Shown here: positions 3,433 to 23,709 of the stretch, one piece after another
Numbering within the stretch: the stretch's first letter is position 1
How the letters are laid out: each line of letters begins with the position of its first letter
Virus record (IMG/VR): IMGVR_UViG_3300009436_000114
Location: 1-23,709 of that record
Source: a virus
Length of the DNA stretch: 23,709 bases
Strand: one strand, 5' to 3'
Translations under genes and position numbers: made by a program
The notes under the pieces: model-generated
What the model was told of the DNA's origin: nothing
Databases searched by the model: none
What the model saw: the letters and a program-made list of their open reading frames with translations, nothing else

Positions 3433-4386
3433 ATGAATAGAGAAAGCGATAGTTTTAAAAATGGCCACTTCACTTGGTTTACTGGAGTCGTCGAAGAAAT
3501 TAATGACCCAGATTATCTAGGGCGAGTTAAAGTAAGATGCTTTGGTTATCATACTAACATTTTAGCGAATATAGCAACGACATCGTTACCATGGGCTACA
3601 GTGATGGGACCAACAAACTCTGCTAATGTATCGGGTATTGGTACAACAACTCATGGGTTAGTGAATGGTACGTGGGTTGTGGGTTTCTTTCGTGATGGAC
3701 CTAGTGCACAAGATCCTATTATTATGGGAACAGTTGGATCTAGTTATGCAGAAAAGCCAAGTAGTACATTAGGTTTTTCTGATGCATCTGGAACATATCC
3801 AAAATTTCAACAAGATACTGATGGTACTGATTTAGAAGAGACTTACGTAGACACAAACTTGTTGGCACGTGGTACGAACACTATCATACGAGAACTTGAT
3901 ACCGTATCCAAAGAACCTGCTACTTTATATGCTGCAGTCTATCCTAATAATAAAGTAACACAAACGACGTCTGGCCATATTATTGAAATAGATGATACAC
4001 CTGGAGCAGAAAGAATTAATATACGACATATGTCTGGCACATTTGTTGAGATTCATCCGAATGGAGATGTCGTACAAAGTAACAGTAATAAATATCAAAT
4101 TACAACCGGTGACGATAATGTGCATATAACTGGTGTATGTAACTTAACAATTGATTCACATTGTAATACTACTATTGGTGGTGATTGGAATATTAATGTA
4201 ACAGGAAATAAAAACGAAACAATTGGTGGCAATGTAACAGAAGATATTACCGGTAATGTTAAAGAGTCTGTTGGTGGTTCTGTAACAGAATCATATAGTG
4301 GTAGTCAAAAAACATCTGCTGCTTCAATGGATATAAATGGTGGATCTGCTATCGATATGGATGCAGGAAGGATTGACTTAAACTAA
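3433..4386 (+). CDS. 5: Baseplate spike protein gp5, lacking the lysozyme domain
   Basis: 317 residues; T4 gp5 has 575. This is the trimeric membrane-puncturing spike. Residues about 12-110 are the OB-fold domain (FTWFTGVVEEINDPDYLGRV, then LPWATVMGPT and WVVGFFRDGPSAQDPIIMG). In T4 the lysozyme domain comes next. Here only a short linker (about 110-175) leads into the VgrG-like section SGHIIEIDDTPGAERINI and SGTFVEIHPNGDV. A beta-helix with eight-residue repeats follows (248-295). The C-terminal segment DINGGSAIDMDAGRIDLN would form the blunt end that receives the PAAR tip. No catalytic Glu-Asp-Thr lysozyme core is present, so cell-wall cutting must be done by another protein. The stop and the next start share TAATG. 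Confidence 0.92.
   Translation: MNRESDSFKNGHFTWFTGVVEEINDPDYLGRVKVRCFGYHTNILANIATTSLPWATVMGPTNSANVSGIGTTTHGLVNGTWVVGFFRDGPSAQDPIIMGTVGSSYAEKPSSTLGFSDASGTYPKFQQDTDGTDLEETYVDTNLLARGTNTIIRELDTVSKEPATLYAAVYPNNKVTQTTSGHIIEIDDTPGAERINIRHMSGTFVEIHPNGDVVQSNSNKYQITTGDDNVHITGVCNLTIDSHCNTTIGGDWNINVTGNKNETIGGNVTEDITGNVKESVGGSVTESYSGSQKTSAASMDINGGSAIDMDAGRIDLN
4174..4317 (+). repeat. Six octapeptide repeats of the gp5 beta-helix needle
   Basis: Residues 248-295 of gp5 read as consecutive octads: IGGDWNIN, VTGNKNET, IGGNVTED, ITGNVKES, VGGSVTES, YSGSQKTS. Each has an aliphatic or aromatic residue at position 1 and Gly at position 3, the pattern of the T4 gp5 C-terminal prism. This is fewer octads than in T4 gp5, which implies a shorter needle. 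Confidence 0.88.
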
Positions 4387-4832
4387 TGGCTATTGTATTA
4401 TCAACTTTGTCTGATGTTACAAGAGATACCACCTTTACGCAAACGATATCTGCTACTGGTGATGGAGCTCCTATTGCTGAAACAATTAATTCTGTTGTAA
4501 TAAGTGGAACTAATGTAGATTCTGGTATCACAATAAATGGTGCAACAATAAGTGGACAATATAATGCAGCGTTTAATGAGCAAGTGCACTATGTTACAAA
4601 AGGATCAAGTGATTTATTAGAGACACCAACAATTGTAAGTGGTACTGGAAATGTTCCACCAAACAAAGACATTATAAAATTTGTTACTGATAACAGCTCA
4701 TTTAAAACAAAATCATATACTGTAACAGTTACATATAATACCAATCAGACAGAAACGTTTACGGTGTCACAGAAAGTGAATAACGATATGGATGGTTTTG
4801 TAAGTTGGTTAACCGGTTATTTGAATGCATAA
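4386..4832 (+). CDS. Uncharacterised small beta-rich protein between spike and spike tip
   Basis: 148 residues, family not recognised. It is rich in Thr, Ser, Asn and Val with alternating hydrophobic residues, which suggests a beta-sandwich. Segments such as TINSVVISGTNVDSGITING and KSYTVTVTYNTNQTETFTVS look like Ig- or fibronectin-type strands. The C terminus (DMDGFVSWLTGYLNA) could be an amphipathic helix. No signal peptide or membrane segment is visible. The ATG overlaps the gp5 stop as TAATG, with AGGAAGGA at 4365-4372 upstream, so it is probably coupled to gp5. Its position between the spike and its PAAR tip suggests a virion or spike-assembly role, but that is inference from context. 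Confidence 0.8.
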   Translation: MAIVLSTLSDVTRDTTFTQTISATGDGAPIAETINSVVISGTNVDSGITINGATISGQYNAAFNEQVHYVTKGSSDLLETPTIVSGTGNVPPNKDIIKFVTDNSSFKTKSYTVTVTYNTNQTETFTVSQKVNNDMDGFVSWLTGYLNA

Positions 4833-6407: not shown

Positions 6408-8267
6408 ATGGCAACTAATTTAAATGTAACCGAACTAGATTTTGATCAAATCAAAGTCAATTTAAAAAACTTTATGAAATCTCAGTCGCAGTTTAAAGAC
6501 TATGATTTTGAAGGTTCAGGTTTAAGTGTATTAATGGATGTTCTTGCATATAATACACATTATAATGCTATGCTAGCACACTTTGCTCTTAATGAATCAT
6601 TCTTAGATTCTGCGCAAATACGAGGTAATGTCGTATCACGTGCAGGCTTATTAGGTTATATACCACGATCGGTCTTAGCACCTAGAGCTAAAATTAATTT
6701 AGTTATCGATGCAAGTAATGCACAAAATGCTAACCTTCCTACATCATTAGTATTAGAACGTGGTACTAAATTTTCTACTTCAGTTGATAATGTAACATAC
6801 ACATATTCTACACTTAATTCACGAACTGCTATTGTCGATTCGAATCAGAAGTTTACTTTTAGCGATGTTGAAATTGCACAAGGTGTTATTCGTTCATTGT
6901 CATACAGAGTTGATAATGATATTGAGAACCAAAAGTTTCAAATATCAGATACTGATGCAGACACCTCTACTCTTAGAGTACGTGTTCAGGCTAACCAAGA
7001 GTCACAATCATTTGATGCATATACTCAGTTTTCGACATTACAAGAAGTTGGTCCATCGAGCCAAGTATATCATTTACAAGAAAGCTCTAGTGGTTTTTAT
7101 CAGATATTTTTTGGTGATGGTATTATTGGTAAAAAGCCTTCTAACAACGAAGTTATAACATTAGATTATCTTATAACTGAAGGAGCTGCAGCAAATGGTG
7201 CATCAGAATTTCAGTTAATATCGGGTTTTAATATTAGTGATATGACCGAATATGAAACAATCGTTACAGGAGTGAGTGCTTCTTCCGGTGGTACTGCACC
7301 AGAAACAACTGAGTCGATTAGGTTTAATGCACCTATTACTTTCCAAGCACAGGATAGAGCTGTAACTTCTCAAGATTATGGTGCTATCATTCAGCGTAAC
7401 TTTGCAAATATTGAGAGTATCTCTACTTGGGGTGGAGAAGATCAAGTTATTCCTGATTTTGGAAAAGCCTATATAAGTGTCAAGCCTCTGATTGGTGTAG
7501 CACTTACAGATAACGAAAAAATTGAAGTTAAAAGTATACTTGCACAAAAGAACATTGTATCAGTTACTCCGGAAATTGTAGATCCAGAATTTACAGATGT
7601 CGAATTAGATATATTGTTTAAATATAATCCAGCATTAACAAGTCGTTCAAAGGAATCGATTGAATCATTAGTTAAAGATACAGTCTTAGATTATAACTTT
7701 AATCAGTTAAACAAGTTTGATGGTGTGTTTAGACACTCAGAATTATTAGGTCTTATCGATAATTCCGATCCTGCTATTACTAGTTCAACGATTCGACCTC
7801 ATATGTTTAAAACTATTACTCCTTCTGTTATAAGATCGAATAATAATTTTACTCTTACTTTTGTTGGAAACTTTTTTATTGAAGGAAATACTAGCTATAA
7901 TATCAGTAGTAATGAGATCTCTATCGGAGGAGTTTCTCATAGGTTTGGTGATTACGCTATTGAAAATAGCAGGAATCGTACTATTATGATTTATAAAGTC
8001 GTCGATGGTGTTGATACAATCGTTGAGCCTAATGTTGGTTTAATTAATGCTGCGACAGGTGTAGTAACATTAAATAATTTTGCTCCTGATAATTCTAATA
8101 TAATTCGAATTACTCTTATTCCAAATTCTTTAGATCTTGCACCAAAACGAAATCAGATCATTAATATTGAATCTTCACGTATCTTCGTAACAGGTTCTAT
8201 TGATAATATCGCATTCTCTGGCCCATCGGGTGCTATTGATTATACAACAACATCAAGGTTCAGATAA
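6408..8267 (+). CDS. 6: Baseplate wedge subunit gp6
   Basis: 619 residues; T4 gp6 has 660. gp6 dimers form the inner ring that links wedges and changes shape on sheath contraction; it belongs to the baseplate J/gp6 family. The N-terminal part has LDFDQIKVNLKNFMKSQSQF and then a conserved region VLAYNTHYNAMLAHFALNES with LGYIPRSVLAPRA (about 45-95). The J-like core (about 290-345) has APETTESIRFNAP, RAVTSQDYGAII and FANIESISTWGGED. It is followed by a ferredoxin-like part with PEIVDPEFTDVELDILFKYN. The C-terminal 180 residues are beta-rich. Its place between gp25 and the gp7-position gene matches the T4 order. The ribosome site is weak (AAGG about 10 bases upstream). Confidence 0.92.
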   Translation: MATNLNVTELDFDQIKVNLKNFMKSQSQFKDYDFEGSGLSVLMDVLAYNTHYNAMLAHFALNESFLDSAQIRGNVVSRAGLLGYIPRSVLAPRAKINLVIDASNAQNANLPTSLVLERGTKFSTSVDNVTYTYSTLNSRTAIVDSNQKFTFSDVEIAQGVIRSLSYRVDNDIENQKFQISDTDADTSTLRVRVQANQESQSFDAYTQFSTLQEVGPSSQVYHLQESSSGFYQIFFGDGIIGKKPSNNEVITLDYLITEGAAANGASEFQLISGFNISDMTEYETIVTGVSASSGGTAPETTESIRFNAPITFQAQDRAVTSQDYGAIIQRNFANIESISTWGGEDQVIPDFGKAYISVKPLIGVALTDNEKIEVKSILAQKNIVSVTPEIVDPEFTDVELDILFKYNPALTSRSKESIESLVKDTVLDYNFNQLNKFDGVFRHSELLGLIDNSDPAITSSTIRPHMFKTITPSVIRSNNNFTLTFVGNFFIEGNTSYNISSNEISIGGVSHRFGDYAIENSRNRTIMIYKVVDGVDTIVEPNVGLINAATGVVTLNNFAPDNSNIIRITLIPNSLDLAPKRNQIINIESSRIFVTGSIDNIAFSGPSGAIDYTTTSRFR

Positions 8268-8270
8268 TAT

Positions 8271-11200
8271 ATGGCAACTAAAAGTATAAAAAATCTAAAT
8301 TCGTTTTCTACTGGCTATTTAGAAAAAATAACAACAAAAGTTAATTTTGATACTACAATGCGTGGAGAAATTGCAGCCGCTATTGTTAACGATAATACTA
8401 TAGTTTTAAAAGAGGAAGCAGTTTCTCTATCGAGTACTGAATCGGTTTTCGAAACAACTGCTATTATTGATATACATATTGGTCAAGTGTTATCAGGAGC
8501 TGGAATAACTGGTGCACCAAAAATTAGTGCAATTAGTACAGATGGTCTTACGATTACAATCGATCAGCCTCAAACCATTGCAGCTAATACTATTATAACG
8601 TTTAATGATTCAAACTCTGGATTAGAACAATATGATTTAAGTGGATCAACTAAATCAAGATCTAAAGAAGATATACGTCTATCAGAAATTATTCCTTCGG
8701 AAATATTAAACTATTCAGAAGATGGAAATGATTCTGGTGGTATACGTAAGTTGCTTGAATCATATTATCAGTTTATGAACCTAGAGGAATTCTTATACAA
8801 AGATGAAGTTACTTTAGAAGATGTAGTAATCGATCAAACAGCGACATTCAGAATTCTAGATCCAGAAATAAAGAACAATAAATTCTTCGTAGGGGATCTA
8901 GTAAAAAACGCTAGGTTTTTTGATGAAGATGATGTTGAATTAAATGTTGGTACTGGAACAACTACAGCAATACCTTCTTTAGTTGACATTACATTAGCTG
9001 GCACGGCAGTATTAGTTATTGGTACAACATATACTATTACAAGTTTAGGTACTCAATCAGCTTCAGATATAAAGACTGATATTGATTTAATTATTGGTGA
9101 AGACTATGTTGAAACTGCGTATGACTTAGGATTTACATTCGTTGCAACAAATACCGGTATTGCAATAAGTGCTGGTGATATTGTTGTACAAGAGATGATC
9201 TCTCCTACTATTTCAATTGATATTAATGTTAGTGATATTTTGATCACTAATGGTAATAATTTGCCAGGACAGTTAGCTGATGATATCAATATTGGTAAAA
9301 CTGCAATTATTCGAAATCTTCCATCACGATTAAACAATAAAAAAATAAAAATGGTTACGCTTCTACAATATTACGTAGAAGGCAATCCCTCGTATCGTTT
9401 AAATACAATTGAAGATTCTTTAAATATAAACCTTGCGGATGAAGAATTCTTAGATCAGATGCAAAAAGAAATAGCTCCAGCTATCTCTAAGGACTTAAAC
9501 GTTGATAAGCGTGCACTATATCAAAAGATCGTAGATTTTTATAGAATTAGAGGATCAAATGATTCTATTAATACATTCTTTAAACTCTTTTTTGGTGATG
9601 AAGAAATTGAAGTTGAATTTCCATGGAATAATACATTAAAACCTTCTGAAGGAAAATGGGATACAACTTCAACTCGATTAGATAATTACAATGTAACAAA
9701 TACTATTAATGGAAGTGGTGGTAGTGCTGGTGACTGTTTCGGTCGGTCGATCGATGTAGATGGTGATACGATGATTGTTGGTGCACCATTCGAGGATACT
9801 GGTGCAAGTAATAACGGTAAGGCTTATGTATATACTACAACAGTTGGTAACACTTGGGTCGAACAAAAAGCCTTTGGTCCAAACGCCACTGCAGCAGTTA
9901 ATAACAGATTTGGTATAGCAACTAGAGTATCAAAGGATGTTGCTGCAATCTCTTGCTTATCGCCATCAAAAGCCACTAGCTTTGTTGAAGTGTGGGAAAG
10001 ATACGTTAAAAATGATGGTACACTTGATTGGGCCTTTATATCAAAATTAGAGAAAAATATTGGTGCTGATGATCAATCAGACTTTGGTCGACAGCTCGAA
10101 TTATACCATGATGCTAGTGGTGCAGCTTATATGGCTGTCGGCGCACCTGATGAAGCGAATAGCGAAACGGTATCAGGTAATACTTTACCGACAGGATCAG
10201 TATACATTTATAAGCAAACTGGATCTACTTGGCAATTACAACAAAAGCTACAAGCATCTCCAGTTATGTTTCCAAGTGGAGTTACAAGCAACTCAAGCAA
10301 ATTTGGCGGCCCTTGGGCTGGAGGAAAAACATTTGCTTTCTTAGATGAATACTTAGCAGTTGGATTTTCGTATTATGGTAATAACATATCAAAGTCTGGT
10401 GCAGTAGCATTATATAAAAAGCAAAGTGATGGCCAGTATGCTTTAGAAAAATTCATACTGCCGGAACAAGAAACTTTAGATCAATACTATGGTCATGCAG
10501 TTGATCTAACACGATCATCAATAAATGATGATATCGTACTGGCCGTGAGCAAGCTAAAGGGTTCATCTATTAGTGCAGAAGTTTGTTTATATAGAAGATC
10601 TGAATCTTTGGATAATCAAATTGATTGGATTAAAACAAATAATTTTACTCCGCCTACAGTAGCCAATCGAAATTCCGGACTGTATGGTTCCTTCTTGCAA
10701 ATCAACGATGATAATTTAATTATTTCAGATCCAGGTGTTGTGACAGCATCAGGTCAAATTGGTTTAATTTATCAGTATGAAAGAGTTGATGGTTTTTGGA
10801 ACGATAGACCTTCTGCAACAAACAAATCAGCATCATCTAATGTCGAAGATAAATTTGGTGAAACGTTTGCATTATCTAAGGATGATAAGTATTATCTAGT
10901 AGTTGGTCAACCTGATGTACTCGATGGGTCAGGTTCGAACAATGGTAAAGTTATAACTTTAAATAAGCCTCTACAAGATGGATCATACCTAGATCAAAAG
11001 GGTCACCTATCGGCTAATCAAAAAATACAAGATTCAGATTTTTATCAAAAATTCTCATACGTAATCAAAGCTCCAAGAAATATTTCTCAGTGGAAAGACA
11101 TTTATAACAAGTTAGTACACCCTGCAGGATTTAAATTCTTTGGTGAGATTCTAATTATTACTAAGTTAGTTCGTGATATATTAGGTGATAACCGTCGTGA

Positions 11201-12380
11201 AGTAACAGTAAATAACTTACCAATTACTGCATATAGTGCATCACCAGCGTTTCGAAAAACATTTTCTTCAATGCCAGGAATTCAGCCAGGATATATCGGT
11301 ATAGAAGACATTGGTTTATTGATTGAAGCAATTGCTTCTTTATTCGGTCCAGTTGGTATTGCCGTACCAAATAAAGATGCCAAGTTTGCAATAACCTCTG
11401 TTGATGATGATGGCACAATCACTGGTATATCTATTGCTGATGCAGGATCTGGTTATGATACGGCTGCTAATAATCCTCCAACGATCTCATTTACTGGAGG
11501 TGATTCAAATGCTGCAGCGACATGTACTGTAAATTCAAGAGGTGAAATCAATACTATAACAATCACTAATGGTGGTGAAGATTACAATATAACAACTGCT
11601 ACGATTGCTGTACAAACACTAGCACAGGCTGGAAATTCAGGAGCAGCTACTGCAATTGGTGCTGCTAATTCTACGTCGTTAGGATTAATATTCTCATCAT
11701 TTGGAACAAAGAAATACACAACGTTACCTGAGATTCTCATTGGAGCTCCTAACTCAAGAGATGCTCAAAATAATTTATCACCAACAAATGTTCAAGCAGC
11801 GGCCAACTTTACATATACAAGTATAACTGCCGGAAGCTTCGTTGTTGGCAATGAATATAGAATCACCGCAGCAGGTAATACCAATTGGTCATCGATTGGT
11901 GCACCTAATAGTACGGTTGGTACAATTTTCAATGCAACAGGTGTAGGATCTGGTAATGGTACTGCTACAGATATGCGTATTGCTGGATATATCATAACTG
12001 CACCTGGTCTTGGCTATATAAATAATCCTAGAGTAACAATTACGAGTAATCCTAATAAAGAAAAACGGGTTCCTCTGAGGATGCATAAGAAAATTATTCC
12101 ATCAAATGTTCTTGATAATACTGTTGTCGCAAATTCGAATTTACATATGACAAGAACACAAGAAAAGAATAATTATTTTTTCCGTAAGCAATATGGACAA
12201 AATCCGTTTTTACATGGACCTAAGAAGTTTAATGGTAATTATAACCTTAGAGATTTTAGTGACATTCAAATACAAAATATGCAAGGATTCACCAGTAACA
12301 CTGTTCCAACTAATATAAATAAACATAACATTCAAACAACAATAGATACTGATATAACAAATTCGACTCAGCCAATTTAG
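8271..12380 (+). CDS. 7: gp7-position baseplate wedge protein with an inserted seven-blade FG-GAP propeller
   Basis: 1369 residues, in the T4 slot of gp7 (1032 residues), the wedge initiator binding gp10, gp8 and gp6. The core resembles, as I recall, the marine-myovirus protein of this slot: LLESYYQFMNLEEFLYKDEV (about 160-180), NPSYRLNTIEDSLNINLADE and a helical segment ending FYRIRGSNDSINTFFKLFFG (about 375-445). It resumes at YLDQKGHLSANQKIQDSDF (about 906-924), KLVHPAGFKFFGEILIITK and MPGIQPGYIGIEDIGLLIEA. Inserts interrupt this core: a small beta module at 68-112, another near 243-310, a seven-blade FG-GAP propeller at about 470-900, Gly-Ser-Gly-Tyr repeats (about 1040-1130) and an IGA module at 1184-1234. 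The polar C-terminal 120 residues hold MHKKIIPSNV and NFF/RKQYGQNPFLHGPKKF-type sequence. The equivalence to T4 gp7 is by position; direct similarity is not obvious. Confidence 0.7.
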   Translation: MATKSIKNLNSFSTGYLEKITTKVNFDTTMRGEIAAAIVNDNTIVLKEEAVSLSSTESVFETTAIIDIHIGQVLSGAGITGAPKISAISTDGLTITIDQPQTIAANTIITFNDSNSGLEQYDLSGSTKSRSKEDIRLSEIIPSEILNYSEDGNDSGGIRKLLESYYQFMNLEEFLYKDEVTLEDVVIDQTATFRILDPEIKNNKFFVGDLVKNARFFDEDDVELNVGTGTTTAIPSLVDITLAGTAVLVIGTTYTITSLGTQSASDIKTDIDLIIGEDYVETAYDLGFTFVATNTGIAISAGDIVVQEMISPTISIDINVSDILITNGNNLPGQLADDINIGKTAIIRNLPSRLNNKKIKMVTLLQYYVEGNPSYRLNTIEDSLNINLADEEFLDQMQKEIAPAISKDLNVDKRALYQKIVDFYRIRGSNDSINTFFKLFFGDEEIEVEFPWNNTLKPSEGKWDTTSTRLDNYNVTNTINGSGGSAGDCFGRSIDVDGDTMIVGAPFEDTGASNNGKAYVYTTTVGNTWVEQKAFGPNATAAVNNRFGIATRVSKDVAAISCLSPSKATSFVEVWERYVKNDGTLDWAFISKLEKNIGADDQSDFGRQLELYHDASGAAYMAVGAPDEANSETVSGNTLPTGSVYIYKQTGSTWQLQQKLQASPVMFPSGVTSNSSKFGGPWAGGKTFAFLDEYLAVGFSYYGNNISKSGAVALYKKQSDGQYALEKFILPEQETLDQYYGHAVDLTRSSINDDIVLAVSKLKGSSISAEVCLYRRSESLDNQIDWIKTNNFTPPTVANRNSGLYGSFLQINDDNLIISDPGVVTASGQIGLIYQYERVDGFWNDRPSATNKSASSNVEDKFGETFALSKDDKYYLVVGQPDVLDGSGSNNGKVITLNKPLQDGSYLDQKGHLSANQKIQDSDFYQKFSYVIKAPRNISQWKDIYNKLVHPAGFKFFGEILIITKLVRDILGDNRREVTVNNLPITAYSASPAFRKTFSSMPGIQPGYIGIEDIGLLIEAIASLFGPVGIAVPNKDAKFAITSVDDDGTITGISIADAGSGYDTAANNPPTISFTGGDSNAAATCTVNSRGEINTITITNGGEDYNITTATIAVQTLAQAGNSGAATAIGAANSTSLGLIFSSFGTKKYTTLPEILIGAPNSRDAQNNLSPTNVQAAANFTYTSITAGSFVVGNEYRITAAGNTNWSSIGAPNSTVGTIFNATGVGSGNGTATDMRIAGYIITAPGLGYINNPRVTITSNPNKEKRVPLRMHKKIIPSNVLDNTVVANSNLHMTRTQEKNNYFFRKQYGQNPFLHGPKKFNGNYNLRDFSDIQIQNMQGFTSNTVPTNINKHNIQTTIDTDITNSTQPI
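8472..8606 (+). repeat. Shared small beta module, copy 1 (gp7-position protein residues 68-112)
   Basis: Pattern: I-x-I-G-Q-V-L-S-G-A-G-I, then P-K-I-S-A-I, then LTITIDQPQTI, ending N-T-I-I-T-F. The same order of motifs recurs in the next three large genes (13015-13176, 16557-16724, 22389-22526). Confidence 0.6.
9678..10970 (+). repeat. Seven FG-GAP repeats forming an integrin-alpha-like beta-propeller insert
   Basis: Residues about 470-900 of the gp7-position protein. Repeat cores start at residues 490 (FGRSIDVDGDTMIVGAP), 547 (FGIATRVSKDVAAISC), 605 (FGRQLEL, then YMAVGAP), 678 (FGGPWAGG, then YLAVGF), 740 (YGHAVDL, then IVLAVS), 805 (YGSFLQINDDNLIISDP) and 862 (FGETFALSKDDKYYLVVGQP). Spacing is 57-73 residues, and most cores are followed by a G-K/S-V/A-Y-V/I-Y strand. 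Seven repeats of about 60 residues is the number for a closed FG-GAP propeller. It sits between EGKWD (460-464) and GSYLDQKGHLS (about 904-914), a loop of the conserved core. Except for the DVDGD in repeat 1, the calcium-binding DxNxDG loops of integrins are mostly missing. Confidence 0.85.
11820..11972 (+). repeat. Small 'Y-x-I-x-x-x-G-x-T-x-W-x-x-I-G-A' beta module
   Basis: Residues 1184-1234 of the gp7-position protein: SITAGSFVVGNEYRITAAG, then NTNWSSIGAPNSTVGTIFNA and TGVGSGNGTA. A degenerate relative seems present at about residues 243-310 (VIGTTYTITSLGT and GFTFVATNTGI). From memory, units of this form are common in marine phage structural proteins. Function unknown. Confidence 0.55.
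12017..12024 (+). promoter_or_regulatory. TATAAATA inside the gp7-position gene (weak promoter candidate)
   Basis: Exact late box about 390 bases upstream of gp8, inside codons for Gly-Tyr-Ile-Asn-Asn-Pro. The coding constraint and AT-rich background make a chance match likely. A second box nearer gp8 (12314-12321) is the better candidate. Confidence 0.2.
12314..12321 (+). promoter_or_regulatory. Putative T4-type late promoter before gp8 (TATAAATA)
   Basis: Exact late box in the last 25 codons of the gp7-position gene, 96 bases before the gp8 ATG. The predicted start near 12327 would give a leader of about 90 bases. gp8 also has the longest gap before it in the plus-strand train (37 bases) and a clear AGGA, which fits a new transcription unit. 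It lies in a weakly constrained polar coding stretch. Confidence 0.4.
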
Positions 12381-12417: not shown

Positions 12418-14097
12418 ATGGCTGCAATCGTCTCATCAAATTTTCGTTCACTGAATGCACAAAATTTTAAAGAGGATGTTACATCACCTGGAAGTAACGT
12501 ATACTTAGGATTAGGAAAACCAAGTGCATGGAGTAATACTCTTACTAGTACAGTCGATGGCACTCCTGCTATTCCAACTGATACCATTGATGGTGTTAAC
12601 CAAGCTAGAGCAAACCTACTAGGTCTTAAGATAATTTCTAATAGTGATATATCACACGTTTGTCCTCGTTATAACTGGGCTGCACAGGAAACGTTTGTAG
12701 CTTGGGATTCGAACGATGTTGATATTTTCGAACGAGCATTCTATTGTCTTACTCCAGATTTTAAAGTTTATAAATGTTTATTTTCTCCTGGTACTGCCGT
12801 TTCTGATGTTCCAACAAAAACACAAACCGATCCATTTAAAACTGTTGATAATTATGTGTGGAAATACATGTATACTATCTTAGCTGCAGATTCGGAAAGA
12901 TTCTTAACTACTTCATATATGCCAGTTAAAAATTTACCTGAAAAGGTTCAAGTAACTGTACCATCTACTACAAGTGCAGCAACTACTATTTTTATATCAG
13001 AAGAAAATCCAGATCTATTGGTAGGAATGCAAGCATTAACAACTGATGCCTATCATGAAAATAATACCAATATTACATTAACTGGATCACCTAAAATTAC
13101 AGCAATTGATGGTACTAAAATAACTCTTTCTAGCAATATTGCTACAGCTACGACGAATGTTGTTGTTACTTTTAGTGATTTTGAAACAACAAACGTTTTA
13201 TACCCACAGCAGCAAGTGCAAAAAGCTTCAAGGGCTTCAGCTACTGCTGGTGGTATTGAAAGAATAGTTATTGGATCTGATTTAAAAGGTTCAACCGCAT
13301 CTTTCGGCAGTGGCTACACAAGCAGCCCAACTATTACTATTGCTGGCGACGGTACTGGAGCTACTTTTTCATCGACGATTACTCTTAACAGTGATGCAGT
13401 CTCAAATTTATCATACTATGTTAGAGATGATAGTGGTGTTGCTGGTGTTAATTATACTGTAGCTAACGTAAATGTTGTTGGTGGTGGTGGTAGTGGTGCG
13501 GTTGCTCGAGCTGTAATTGCGCCAGGTGCAGGGCATGGTACGAATCCTGTACAAGAACTTGGTGGTTTTTATATCGCAATTAATGCACAAATAAGTGGTG
13601 CTACTGATTCGGCCGATATCGTTAATACTCAGGATTTTCGTCAAATTTTATTACTTAAGAATCCATTAAGTAGTACAGGCCTTAAATTAGACTCTACAAC
13701 ATTGAATGGTACACCATACTTAAAAGCGTCAACTGGCTCAAGTGGCGGTTTAGATCTGCTTAATACCGCAGCGTTGACAGGAGATCCTATTATTACAGGG
13801 GCAGGTGGAGCTAAAGCTTATGTTGTTGCAGTTGATACTCAGAATGAATATATATACTATCATCAAAATGCAAATACTGGATATGGTACATTCGTAGCAA
13901 GTGAAGCTATAACAGCAGATGTTGGTACTACTGCTATCGACCTATCAGGCAATGCAATTGCCTTACTTGGTTCATCATTTAATATTGATGCAGAGTTTGA
14001 TACTGGTTCTGGTGAGATCTTATTCCTAGAAAACAGAGATCCAATTCAACGAAGTAGTTCACAGATTGAAGACGTTAAATTAATTATAGAATTTTAA
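12418..14097 (+). CDS. 8: Baseplate wedge subunit gp8, expanded by beta modules
   Basis: 559 residues; T4 gp8 has 334. gp8 dimers sit on the outer wedge and bind gp7 and gp10. Family pattern: IVSSNFRSLNAQNF start, VYLGLGKPSAWSN (T4 IFITFGRSEPWSS), VCPRYNWA, YKCLFSPG, and NYVWKYMYTI (T4 GYVWEYLFEI) at about 145-155. The C-terminal part has DFRQILLLKNPLSSTGLKLD (about 407-426) and ends FLENRDPIQRSSSQIEDVKL with terminal IIEF, matching the T4 ending MENRPPI...ILFTF. Residues about 180-400 hold inserted modules: the shared beta module (200-253) and a Gly-Ser-Gly-Tyr repeat (FGSGY at 296-300, then a GGGGSGAVARAVI stretch). AGGA at 12407-12410 lies seven bases before the ATG. Confidence 0.9.
   Translation: MAAIVSSNFRSLNAQNFKEDVTSPGSNVYLGLGKPSAWSNTLTSTVDGTPAIPTDTIDGVNQARANLLGLKIISNSDISHVCPRYNWAAQETFVAWDSNDVDIFERAFYCLTPDFKVYKCLFSPGTAVSDVPTKTQTDPFKTVDNYVWKYMYTILAADSERFLTTSYMPVKNLPEKVQVTVPSTTSAATTIFISEENPDLLVGMQALTTDAYHENNTNITLTGSPKITAIDGTKITLSSNIATATTNVVVTFSDFETTNVLYPQQQVQKASRASATAGGIERIVIGSDLKGSTASFGSGYTSSPTITIAGDGTGATFSSTITLNSDAVSNLSYYVRDDSGVAGVNYTVANVNVVGGGGSGAVARAVIAPGAGHGTNPVQELGGFYIAINAQISGATDSADIVNTQDFRQILLLKNPLSSTGLKLDSTTLNGTPYLKASTGSSGGLDLLNTAALTGDPIITGAGGAKAYVVAVDTQNEYIYYHQNANTGYGTFVASEAITADVGTTAIDLSGNAIALLGSSFNIDAEFDTGSGEILFLENRDPIQRSSSQIEDVKLIIEF
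13015..13176 (+). repeat. Shared small beta module, copy 2 (gp8 residues 200-253)
   Basis: LLVGMQAL, then a short loop, LTGSPKITAIDGTKITLSS, and closing V-V-V-T-F-S. Same motif order as copies at 8472, 16557 and 22389. Confidence 0.6.
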
Positions 14098-20436: not shown

Positions 20437-20676
20437 ATGCCTAGAAAAAAGAAACAAACAGACAATATCGATATTTTGCAGGTTGATACTCAGCCGGATC
20501 TTGTTCGTGATACTAACTCTAATGCTATTATAAATACTAATGAAAGTGCATATATGGCACGCCTTGCGCAAATAGAAAAAAACAAATTAGATGCTCAACA
20601 ATCTTTAAAGATTAATAAACTTGAAAGTGATGTTGAGGAAATTAAAAACTTATTAAAACAACTGGTGAGTAAATAA
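20437..20676 (+). CDS. Small coiled-coil protein
   Basis: 79 residues, family not recognised. A basic start (PRKKKQ) and an acidic/polar segment lead into a long charged helix from about residue 38 to 79 (ARLAQIEKNKLDAQQSLKIN, then KLESDVEEIKNLLKQLVSK). Ile and Leu fall at heptad positions near the C terminus, so it should form a short coiled coil. It lies four bases after the giant DUF4815-like gene, and its stop overlaps the next ATG as TAATG. That placement suggests a small connector, trimerisation partner or assembly factor for the large proteins on either side. No good ribosome site is visible; coupling to the upstream gene is likely. Confidence 0.75.
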   Translation: MPRKKKQTDNIDILQVDTQPDLVRDTNSNAIINTNESAYMARLAQIEKNKLDAQQSLKINKLESDVEEIKNLLKQLVSK

Positions 20677-23600
20677 TGGCAAAAAATACAGAAACACGAG
20701 TAGAAAAGAGCGCAACGTTCGAACAATGGAGAAAATCTACAAATAAAACTTCATTTGATACAGGTCCAATTGCTAGTAATAATAAAGCTAATGCATTGTC
20801 TGTTGAACGAGCACTTGATATTGATGGAAGATTCGGTGATCAGATAAAAACTTTTACTGCAGCAGCAGGCGATTATTTATATCGTGACTTAAGTCTACGC
20901 TTAGAATATCTTCCAGGAGAATCGATTGATAACACTGGTGGTTATATTATCTTTCGAAACTTGACTGCTATCCCTGCAACAATTGTTCCAGGTGCATTTT
21001 TAACTCAGCAAGACGGACAAAGTAATATAACATTTAGTTGTTTAGTCGTGTCGATATCCACTACTAAAGCATTAGTGTCTAGTACTAAAGGAACGTTTGA
21101 TCCTAGTATTGCTATTGCTTTATCTTCTAGTGTTAGTACTAATATAGCTGCAAGTAATCTTGCAAGATTAATTATAGGTTCAAGTAGCTTTACTAGCGCT
21201 AGAATTTATAGACAAGCATCTAATAATACATATCTTAATGGTGGATCTTCATTACCACAAAATTATACTAGTGCGCTAGGTTATCATATTCCAAACATCA
21301 CCACACAATTAAACTTTATAAGTAGTGCTCCCGCCATACCAATTTCATATACTGAAGGCGAAACAATATATCAAACAGCTAATGAGGCTGTTACTTCAGC
21401 TTCTAATGCTACTACTTTTTCTGCTAAAATTAGATTTATTTCAGCGAGTCAAGTTCAAGGTTTAGGCACTTATGGTGGTATTTTATTATATGATGTTGTA
21501 GGTACATTAAACGCAAGTTTAAAGCTGATCTCTACAACTGATGGTGTTGCAGCTACTGGAACGATTGCCGCAACGCATATACCAGCAAATGGAGCTTTAA
21601 TAGCAGCAACTAATAATGAATTTGGAACAATTGTTGAATTTAATCAACCGTTAACGGTAGGTGATATTGTAAGTATTCAATATACAAACTTAGTAGATGC
21701 TGCATTAGAATTACAAGATGATATTGGTACAATTGAAGATCTTGGAACAAATACTGTTCAAGCAGGTTTTGGTTCAACTACAAGAAAAAGTCTTACGACA
21801 ACTGATTTAGTTACCACATTAAATACATTACAAGATATGATTGGTGATGCTACATTACCAACCATTACAAATAATACTCATTTAGTTCCAGCCAATGTTA
21901 TAACGATTAGTAATGCAACTAAAAGTATAATGGACTTTATTGGTGATAGCGATTTATCTGATGCTGCATTAGGTGCAACTGCAGATGCTCAATCTACTCT
22001 TACTGCAGCAATCACTTCTATAAAGGGTTTTATTGGTAGTACTGATATATCTGGCGTTACTTCTGGTGAAAAAATAACTGATTCAATTGCACGCCTTCAT
22101 ACTGAGATTGGTGATGTCACTGAGGCTAATCTTGGAACAGATGTTGGATCTCATGCAGATATTACTTCAAAGATTCTTGCAATTGATACACACTTAGGTA
22201 ACTCTACACTAACTTCAAATGATAACGTAACACTGCTAGGAAGTCAAACAGTATCAGATACTCTTCAAAAGTTAATGACTGTAATTGGTGAAACTGTACA
22301 ATGGAAAACTATTCCAAACACAACACAATCAACTGATGGTAATGCCCATGCTGATACAACTATCACGCTATCTGCAGCTAATCCTGCCATTAAAGCTGGT
22401 CAACTTGTTAGTGGTACCAACGTTGGTAGTGCTAGAACTGTAGTATCTATTAATGGTACAGCTCTAGTATTAAGTAGTAATCCTAGCGGCACAATTGGAG
22501 CAGATACAGTACTTACATTTTCAAATATAGTTGCTCCAACCCTAGTTGATGTCCTTGACTTTATTCATGATGAAATGGGTGATGTTAAAGCTTTAAGTGC
22601 AGCTAATCTCGGTAATGTTGCGGATAAGCCACGAGATATATCAACTGCAATTAATGCAATTAAATCTTTTATTGGTGTTGCAGATATTAGTGATATTGAT
22701 AACGGAACTGATAATACAATCACATCAGCTCTTGATCAAATATACACAGACATTGGTGACGTAGGTGCATCAGGTGCAAACTTAACAGGTAGTGTATTTA
22801 ATGCTAGTACTGATGATTTACAGAAAGCTATATTAGCACTTGGCGTTGCAGCTACAGGTGCTGTTGAATTAGATACTGCCTTTCATGCAAGTAATAGCGG
22901 TAGTTTAGCACATGCTGCTGGATATAGCGCAACAAACTTACACCAAGGTATCACAGAAATTCAAGGTGTCTTAGGTGATGTAACTGGTTTAAGTACTGAC
23001 GCATTTGCACCTATCACATCAGTAAATCATCTAACAACTGCAGCGAGTGCTGCTAGTGCATCAATCACAGTAAATATTACTCCAGTCGCAAATTCTGCTG
23101 TTAATAGTGGAACATATAGCAAAGTTGATGTTGGTTATGTTGTTACTTTAATTACAGATGCTGCTGGTGGAGATGCTGTTGTTCCTGCTGATACTGTAGT
23201 CATTAAGAAAAATGCGAATGGTAATTTAATATTAAACAATGCAGTAACTCTTTCAATTGGTGATACACTTAAACTTTCAGAACCTGCAAATAGTTATGGC
23301 TTTAATGATGACAATATAGTTTCTGCTTTATTAGAACTTAAAGCAGCTTTGGTTGGTGGTACTGCGGATTTATCAGATAAGATTGCAACTCTTGATGATT
23401 CAGATGGCGCAGCTACAGACTTTGATTCAGGTAATATTGTAGATGCAATTCGTGAACTTCAAGATGATCTTGGACAACGAAGCTTAATTAGTTCTTCTAT
23501 TAATGCTGCTAACGCAGGAACATTTAATAGTGATACATACACAGATGCAATTAATAGTATACTAACTGTTATTGGTTCAGAAAATATTAGTGGTATTCAT

Positions 23601-23709
23601 GGAACTACTCATACACTAAGTCATACTATCAAGAAATTACATGATGAGCTTGGTGATGTAACAGCTAATGCAATGGGTACAACTGCATCTACTGTTGTGA
23701 CAGCAATTA
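20676..23709 (+). CDS. Large repetitive tail-fibre-like structural protein (3' end outside the window)
   Basis: I translated this frame from the ATG at 20676 to the right edge: 1011 codons with no stop, so the gene continues outside. The N terminus (ETRVEKSATFEQWRKSTNKT, then SFDTG) resembles, from memory, large structural proteins of marine T4-like phages that start with FEQWRQKTN. Residues about 40-340 are a mixed beta region (AGDYLYRDLSLRLEYLPGES and GGYIIFRNL). From about 345 onward come repeated helix-turn units ending in I/L-G-D (see repeat entry), interrupted by a shared beta module (572-617) and another beta insert (about 795-870). The protein is rich in Thr, Ser, Ala and Asn and has no signal peptide or membrane segment. 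The architecture fits a long trimeric fibre or whisker shaft; the receptor-binding end would lie beyond the window. Confidence 0.75.
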   Translation, partial: MAKNTETRVEKSATFEQWRKSTNKTSFDTGPIASNNKANALSVERALDIDGRFGDQIKTFTAAAGDYLYRDLSLRLEYLPGESIDNTGGYIIFRNLTAIPATIVPGAFLTQQDGQSNITFSCLVVSISTTKALVSSTKGTFDPSIAIALSSSVSTNIAASNLARLIIGSSSFTSARIYRQASNNTYLNGGSSLPQNYTSALGYHIPNITTQLNFISSAPAIPISYTEGETIYQTANEAVTSASNATTFSAKIRFISASQVQGLGTYGGILLYDVVGTLNASLKLISTTDGVAATGTIAATHIPANGALIAATNNEFGTIVEFNQPLTVGDIVSIQYTNLVDAALELQDDIGTIEDLGTNTVQAGFGSTTRKSLTTTDLVTTLNTLQDMIGDATLPTITNNTHLVPANVITISNATKSIMDFIGDSDLSDAALGATADAQSTLTAAITSIKGFIGSTDISGVTSGEKITDSIARLHTEIGDVTEANLGTDVGSHADITSKILAIDTHLGNSTLTSNDNVTLLGSQTVSDTLQKLMTVIGETVQWKTIPNTTQSTDGNAHADTTITLSAANPAIKAGQLVSGTNVGSARTVVSINGTALVLSSNPSGTIGADTVLTFSNIVAPTLVDVLDFIHDEMGDVKALSAANLGNVADKPRDISTAINAIKSFIGVADISDIDNGTDNTITSALDQIYTDIGDVGASGANLTGSVFNASTDDLQKAILALGVAATGAVELDTAFHASNSGSLAHAAGYSATNLHQGITEIQGVLGDVTGLSTDAFAPITSVNHLTTAASAASASITVNITPVANSAVNSGTYSKVDVGYVVTLITDAAGGDAVVPADTVVIKKNANGNLILNNAVTLSIGDTLKLSEPANSYGFNDDNIVSALLELKAALVGGTADLSDKIATLDDSDGAATDFDSGNIVDAIRELQDDLGQRSLISSSINAANAGTFNSDTYTDAINSILTVIGSENISGIHGTTHTLSHTIKKLHDELGDVTANAMGTTASTVVTAI
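21703..23709 (+). repeat. Degenerate 'helix + I-G-D' repeats of the fibre-like protein
   Basis: About sixteen units share the form A-x-x-x-L/I-x-x-x-I/L-G-D/x, for example LELQDDIGTIEDLG, TLQDMIGDATL, SIMDFIGDSDLSD, SIKGFIGSTDISG, RLHTEIGDVTEANLG, VLDFIHDEMGDVKAL, AIKSFIGVADISD, LDQIYTDIGDVGA, IRELQDDLGQRSL and KLHDELGDVTANAMG. Starts are mostly 26-40 residues apart. The Gly falls at positions such as 21721, 21840, 22029, 22107, 22750, 22968 and 23647. Two longer gaps contain beta inserts. The DNA copies are diverged, so these are old duplications. Confidence 0.75.
22389..22526 (+). repeat. Shared small beta module, copy 4 (fibre-like protein residues 572-617)
   Basis: IKAGQLVSGTNVGSARTVVS, then INGTALVLSSNPSGTI and closing T-V-L-T-F-S. 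Same motif order as the copies in the three preceding large genes. It sits between two I-G-D repeats. Confidence 0.6.

Follow-up and report, generated by a model that had tools for sequence, protein, structure and literature searches.

A predicted seven-blade FG-GAP propeller within the gp7 homologue of uncultured T4-like phages

What an integrin-type repeat domain is doing inside a baseplate wedge protein is the question raised by a single open reading frame of an uncultured virus. The DNA studied here, which we call the window, is an entire IMG/VR record of 23,709 bases, a metagenomic fragment carrying a T4-like baseplate module made up of a tail-tube cap, a hub/lysozyme, PAAR, gp25, gp6, the ORF of interest (the slot ORF), gp8 and a DUF4815 protein of 2106 aa. 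The gene for gp6 (positions 6408..8267; PF21379, phrog_219) is the upstream neighbour and was used as the anchor of the slot survey, the 1369-aa slot ORF occupies 8271..12380, and the gene for gp8 (12418..14097; PF09215, phrog_438) is the downstream neighbour, all of them, like the parts of the slot ORF given below, on the plus strand. The order is gp25, gp6, slot ORF, gp8, and the core order of T4 is likewise gp6, gp7, gp8. The carriers of the propeller described here are apparently a group of uncultured aquatic T4-like phages.

The slot ORF matched the Pfam family Baseplate_wedge (PF23786) with 46.8 bits (cut-off 27), and the whole protein gave no match in the PDB by phmmer. A profile of the core (A6), built on 40 compact relatives, was searched against all PDB sequences, and its sole significant matches were two T4-type gp7 chains (3.8e-5 and 4e-5), each in two collinear segments, at about 731-764 and 845/861-900. 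When the slot core was aligned to T4 gp7 by hhalign, the left half matched at 6e-5 and the right half at 1.6e-4. Because of these collinear core matches, what the sequence-only reading had called a protein in the gp7 position can be raised to a homologue of T4 gp7, and, judged on its sequence and the gene order, the slot ORF is the gp7 of this phage. The left half of the conserved core (residues 376-464; 9396..9662) runs to the GKWD junction and is collinear with T4 gp7 731-761; it also showed a weak match, under the cut-off, to the phage tail domain TIGR02242. The right half (YLDQKGHLS...LVHPAGFKFFGEIL; 10983..11195) covers positions 209-280 of PF23786 and residues 862-896 of T4 gp7. Further upstream, a helical segment at residues 129-170 (SRSKEDIRL...ESYYQFMN; 8655..8780) is kept in all compact slot proteins and is probably a helix-turn-helix of the core bundle, by analogy with XM1 gp17 (PMC10457771). 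The structure prediction of the compact core (L112 in our numbering of relatives, 32 sequences) reached a pLDDT of 39 and was left out of the fold search. The C-terminal part holds beta repeats of the GGxGY type (11391..11624, within residues 1041-1199), with matches to phrog_460 and phrog_438; since the latter is the gp8 family, these repeats may be common to gp7 and gp8. The repeat type matches the solved phage depolymerase tailspike Dpo31 (E 0.0052), and, besides the C-terminus of the window gp7, it also fills the insert junction in distant relatives (L119-L145).

Between the two core halves, the GKWD motif (461-464) and YLDQKGHLS (906-914) are separated in the window by about 440 residues, and this insert (residues 465-904; 9663..10982) contains the whole FG-GAP propeller. 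To place it, 135 gp7-slot matches were gathered around gp6 and gp8, in most of which both flanks could be positioned. The junction measured 4 residues in 43 relatives and 9 in 33, and 75, 169 or 408-816 residues in the others; thus, in 76 relatives G(K/N)WD is followed almost directly by YLDxKGxLS, as the sequence-only reading had stated for homologues. All three states of the site (present, absent and replaced) were encountered, and the segment is missing from most of the slot homologues, so that it is not a universal part of this protein. In the named phages Melnitz-3, S-CAM1 and pf16, the slot proteins share the gene position and the junction with the window, which in these is filled with other sequence (379, 1793 and 233 residues, respectively) unrelated to the propeller. 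In T4 gp7, the wedge initiator occupying the same slot, about 100 residues lie between the halves, also unrelated and with no blade HMM matches, in agreement with the earlier expectation that T4 gp7 has no such domain. The blade HMM likewise found no FG-GAP blades in the junction inserts of distant relatives, which are GGxGY-type arrays. As the junction loop is empty in close relatives and carries other inserts in distant ones, it appears to be a place at which new binding modules can naturally dock.

The sequence-only reading had described seven repeats starting with FG or YG at residues 490, 547, 605, 678, 740, 805 and 862, and all seven are present in the ORF; its further statement that most of them end in VGAP-like strands holds for blades 1, 3 and 7, which end in a recognisable VGAP or VGQP, and not for the others. 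The Pfam family FG-GAP_2 (PF14312) matched the window with 48.4 bits (cut-off 23), hitting one blade clearly and two stretches when the insert was scanned alone, and it matched 17/17 scanned inserts, the best at 9.7e-32. A blade HMM built only from L008, L022, L015 and L011, leaving out the subclade of the window, gave exactly 7 tandem matches in the window (E 3.9e-44, 136 bits) and 7 also in L003 and L004, whereas shuffled inserts (n = 600) scored 12 bits at best; the reverse blade test returned 5-7 blades per insert. The folded propeller spans residues about 474-898 (nt 9690-10964). By the blade HMM and the AlphaFold2 model, blade 1 (FG490, VGAP; also detected by FG-GAP_2) lies at 9747..9875, blade 2 (FG547) at 9921..10052, blade 3 (FG605, VGAP) at 10095..10253, blade 4 at 10332..10457, blade 5 (YG740) at 10488..10646 with the weakest HMM match (i-E 0.011), blade 6 (YG805) at 10695..10817 and blade 7, with three strands (FG862, VGQP), at 10863..10964. 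Blade 4 is irregular, because FG678 is located about 10 residues ahead of its first strand.

AlphaFold2, run on residues 391-985 with 21 sequences, gave a pLDDT of about 80-90 for the greater part of the insert, and most flank residues stayed below 50. The insert was modelled as 28 strands, namely a single strand at the N-terminus, followed by six blades of four strands and a final blade of three; from the strand count and the fold match, we infer that the N-terminal strand (residues 474-480; 9690..9710, taken from the AlphaFold2 secondary structure) completes blade 7 and would close the ring into seven four-stranded blades. The closed seven-blade propeller proposed from the letters is predicted with good confidence. 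In a fold search of the PDB, the top 42 matches were integrin alpha chains, with E down to 7e-14 and TM up to 0.65 when normalised by the integrin chain, and the insert profile, by sequence alone, matched integrin alpha-4 (6.8e-5) and alpha-M. The integrin alpha propeller (PF01839/PF14312) and the phage domain have seven FG-GAP blades in common, at an identity of about 15%. The calcium motif D.[DN].[DN]G was not found in the window or in most relatives, and occurs sporadically in four; the missing DxDxDG excludes metal sites of the kind found in integrin blades 4-7, not the FG-GAP fold. Moreover, the integrin alpha subunit has a partner beta subunit, a transmembrane chain and thigh and calf domains, whereas the window domain sits within a phage baseplate ORF without these; the likeness is in fold and repeat. 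Rank 43 of the same search was a seven-blade rhamnose-glucuronate lyase (7esl, E 2.3e-8), a match in favour of an enzymatic role, for instance that of a polysaccharide lyase that would soften the surface of the host. We reject this explanation as very improbable, since the integrins stand far above 7esl in the ranking and the invariant columns of the insert are Gly, Trp, Phe, Asp and a few strand residues, without the invariant His/Lys/Tyr cluster typical of lyases.

The record being a metagenomic fragment of 23.7 kb, an adhesin fragment might have been misjoined into gp7 during assembly. This was refuted by the relatives, to the point that we give it practically no credence: a second contig is identical across residues 1-903, the inserts of 17/17 aligned relatives agree in architecture, in flanks and in matching FG-GAP_2 and yet have diverged in sequence, and FG-GAP_2 matches were found in 16/16 clade records searched, with open-frame lengths in agreement with the slot ORF. 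No FG-GAP_2 match was obtained in four relatives that lie outside the clade and whose contigs measure 49-130 kb. A gp6 tree comprised 88 rows, 21 of them with FG-GAP; these 21 grouped together in a single clade (support 100) that branches from among lineages with an empty site. In this tree six truncated or broken rows had their state labelled by hand, two of them (L013 and L016) by flank similarity only and the others (L012, L014, L021 and L025) not by flank similarity only, L012 and L014 being assigned by FG-GAP matches. Subject to rooting, a single gain of the propeller in the clade is the simplest history that these sequences suggest. A GTDB genome scan using one short pattern did not find a bacterial relative of the insert.

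The insert has diverged more than its surroundings: between the window and L003 its identity is 41%, against 74-77% in the flanks, and the same gap was observed in every identity band. Loop lengths also differ, as the B-C loops measure 4-15 residues (up to 88) and the D-A loops 10-30, against a nearly constant 2-8 in the A-B and C-D loops. In propellers, B-C and D-A loops lie on one shared face, so the length variation is confined to that face. Per-residue entropy (B-C 1.41 and D-A 1.60 on top, A-B 1.48 and C-D 1.69 at the bottom) does not separate the two faces, and one-face variability is therefore a matter of length. Since strand D7 is the point of entry of the chain, which exits after C7, both termini would be on the face opposite the variable loops, next to the wedge. 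These data bear on the reading of the propeller as a ligand-free element that would only space or stabilise adjacent wedges or layers of the baseplate: other phages fill the site with large GGxGY arrays (400-1800 aa) that are maybe just bulk, but stabilising contacts are expected to be conserved, and here the insert evolves much faster than the core and varies in length on one face. We consider a spacer improbable.

Five relatives (L030, L156, L158, L179 and L019) carry a module of about 79 residues in the B-C loop of blade 1. Across subclades these modules retain 88-93% DNA identity, while the surrounding propellers have strongly diverged, and a central tail fibre of lambda-J-like type, on the contig of another phage, also contains the module, at 82% aa identity. 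Module loci are L030:3188-3424, L019:3568-3804, L156:6965-7201, L179:2407-2637 and L180:2962-3195. The module has been shuffled between tail proteins of different phages, and its uptake, together with the one-face length variation, fits an exposed, host-facing surface. Residues 30-118 of the window protein had been considered by eye to resemble the same module, and the candidate was dropped as BLAST gave it no support. In L014:4886-9351, on a contig shared with L181, the gp7-slot gene consists of two ORFs of 568 and 539 aa with the frame break inside the nested module, and this split gene is either a pseudogene or an assembly error.

Taking these observations together, we propose that the ORF encodes the gp7 of the phage, a baseplate protein present once per wedge, and that a loop of its conserved core has received, once in the clade, a self-contained seven-blade propeller of the integrin-alpha type. 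The chain would join the propeller at its bottom face by short linkers, and, because it enters and leaves there, the top face, which bears the long variable loops, would point away from the wedge. The T4 tail contains six gp7 (PMC3004832), and, if this stoichiometry holds, six propellers would ring the baseplate. At adsorption they may bind a molecule of the host surface, either a glycan or a protein, and so hold or trigger the baseplate. Exposure at the baseplate rim, orientation, copy number and ligand are what we infer here, and the loop geometry and the published gp7-like proteins fit both rim exposure and host or fibre binding. Precedents for fibre binding come from solved machines, in which gp7-like proteins mostly hold the spikes or fibres of the phage itself (PMC10457771, PMC8894135), and this counts against host binding. 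XM1 gp17, an orthologue of T4 gp7, holds six spikes via the core-domain loop 80-106 and six via its C-terminus (PMC10457771), the gp7-like part of AlgoCIS Alg12 is a second precedent (PMC8894135), and T4 gp7 itself touches gp9, gp10 and gp8 (PMC3004832). By analogy, the propeller could be a docking platform for the tail fibres or spikes of the phage, its top face holding the fibre base in place of the T4 gp10/gp9 attachments. However, the relatives with an empty site presumably have fibres too, without a propeller, and the top-loop module is common to the tail-tip J protein of another phage, where it points outward; docking is a possible explanation, which we hold to be less probable than host binding. 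We prefer, with confidence evenly divided for and against, an outward-facing binding domain on gp7 that binds the host cell surface. In its support, other viral proteins repeatedly show folds of the FG-GAP type, and some of these proteins are of the surface type and have collagen or F5/8C domains; against it stand the top-loop entropy, not clearly above that of the bottom loops, and the window's lack of a calcium-site motif. A broader reading, which we advance tentatively and at rather less than even confidence, is that the gp7-core junction serves the whole T4 superfamily as a plug-in site, where unrelated binding modules (a propeller, GGxGY arrays, small modules of beta structure, or nothing) replace one another and so retool rim binding, with the propeller acting as a direct receptor-binding domain of the baseplate beside or instead of fibres.

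Both FG-GAP proteins, from giant viruses and some phages, and the role of gp7-like proteins as a hotspot of re-engineering are already known. The attachments of XM1 gp17 and of the Alg12 gp7-like part are peripheral spikes or fibres and no propeller has been reported in either (PMC10457771, PMC8894135); XM1 gp17 attaches via a loop inside its core domain, and the general layout of its domain I (helices, loop, helix) agrees with that of the window. The giant-virus proteins, from Mantoniella tinhauana virus 1, where they were proposed for attachment (PMC11467894), and from BFVD entries, are strong fold matches but belong to eukaryotic viruses and are free-standing. By the same HMM, tandem blades were detected in Vibrio phage nt-1 ORF127, the S-TIM5 virion protein, S-SCSM2R_111, UFOVP1367_22 and Sinorhizobium phage Phosso gp108, which are separate proteins, none of them within a baseplate wedge protein. 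In Phosso gp108 (L169:12844-23922, 3692 aa) the FG-GAP blades number about 40, which corresponds to roughly six propellers in series. No open-access paper was found that pairs FG-GAP or beta-propeller with the phage baseplate (wedge), and the placement of an FG-GAP propeller inside gp7 appears unreported. It would mean that the central wedge of a contractile-tail baseplate has acquired an adhesion fold of the integrin class, and the site has a clear before/after record: near relatives are empty, one clade is occupied, and other sequence is found elsewhere. Because of this record, the gain of new binding functions by a baseplate becomes testable, and the junction offers a natural site for tolerated insertions.

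These results bear on the report that T4 gp7 is lacking in pelagimyophages and cyanomyophages, with VrlC taking its place (PMC7029224). In the cyanomyophage S-CAM1, the gp7 core is present in a 'structural protein' of 3032 aa encoded between gp6 and gp8, and the VrlC-type gene ('virulence associated protein') comes after gp8; in Melnitz-3 the same core directly follows gp6. As both phages carry the gp7 core, that statement needs revision. Two further ORFs of the window were recorded: one at 20676-23709, of at least 1011 aa and with no family match, is made of repeated helical-looking IGDV/NLGT units and is possibly a fibre, and a 148-aa ORF at 4386-4832, adjoining the hub gene, matches a PHROG named toxin (phrog_23903, 1.5e-10).
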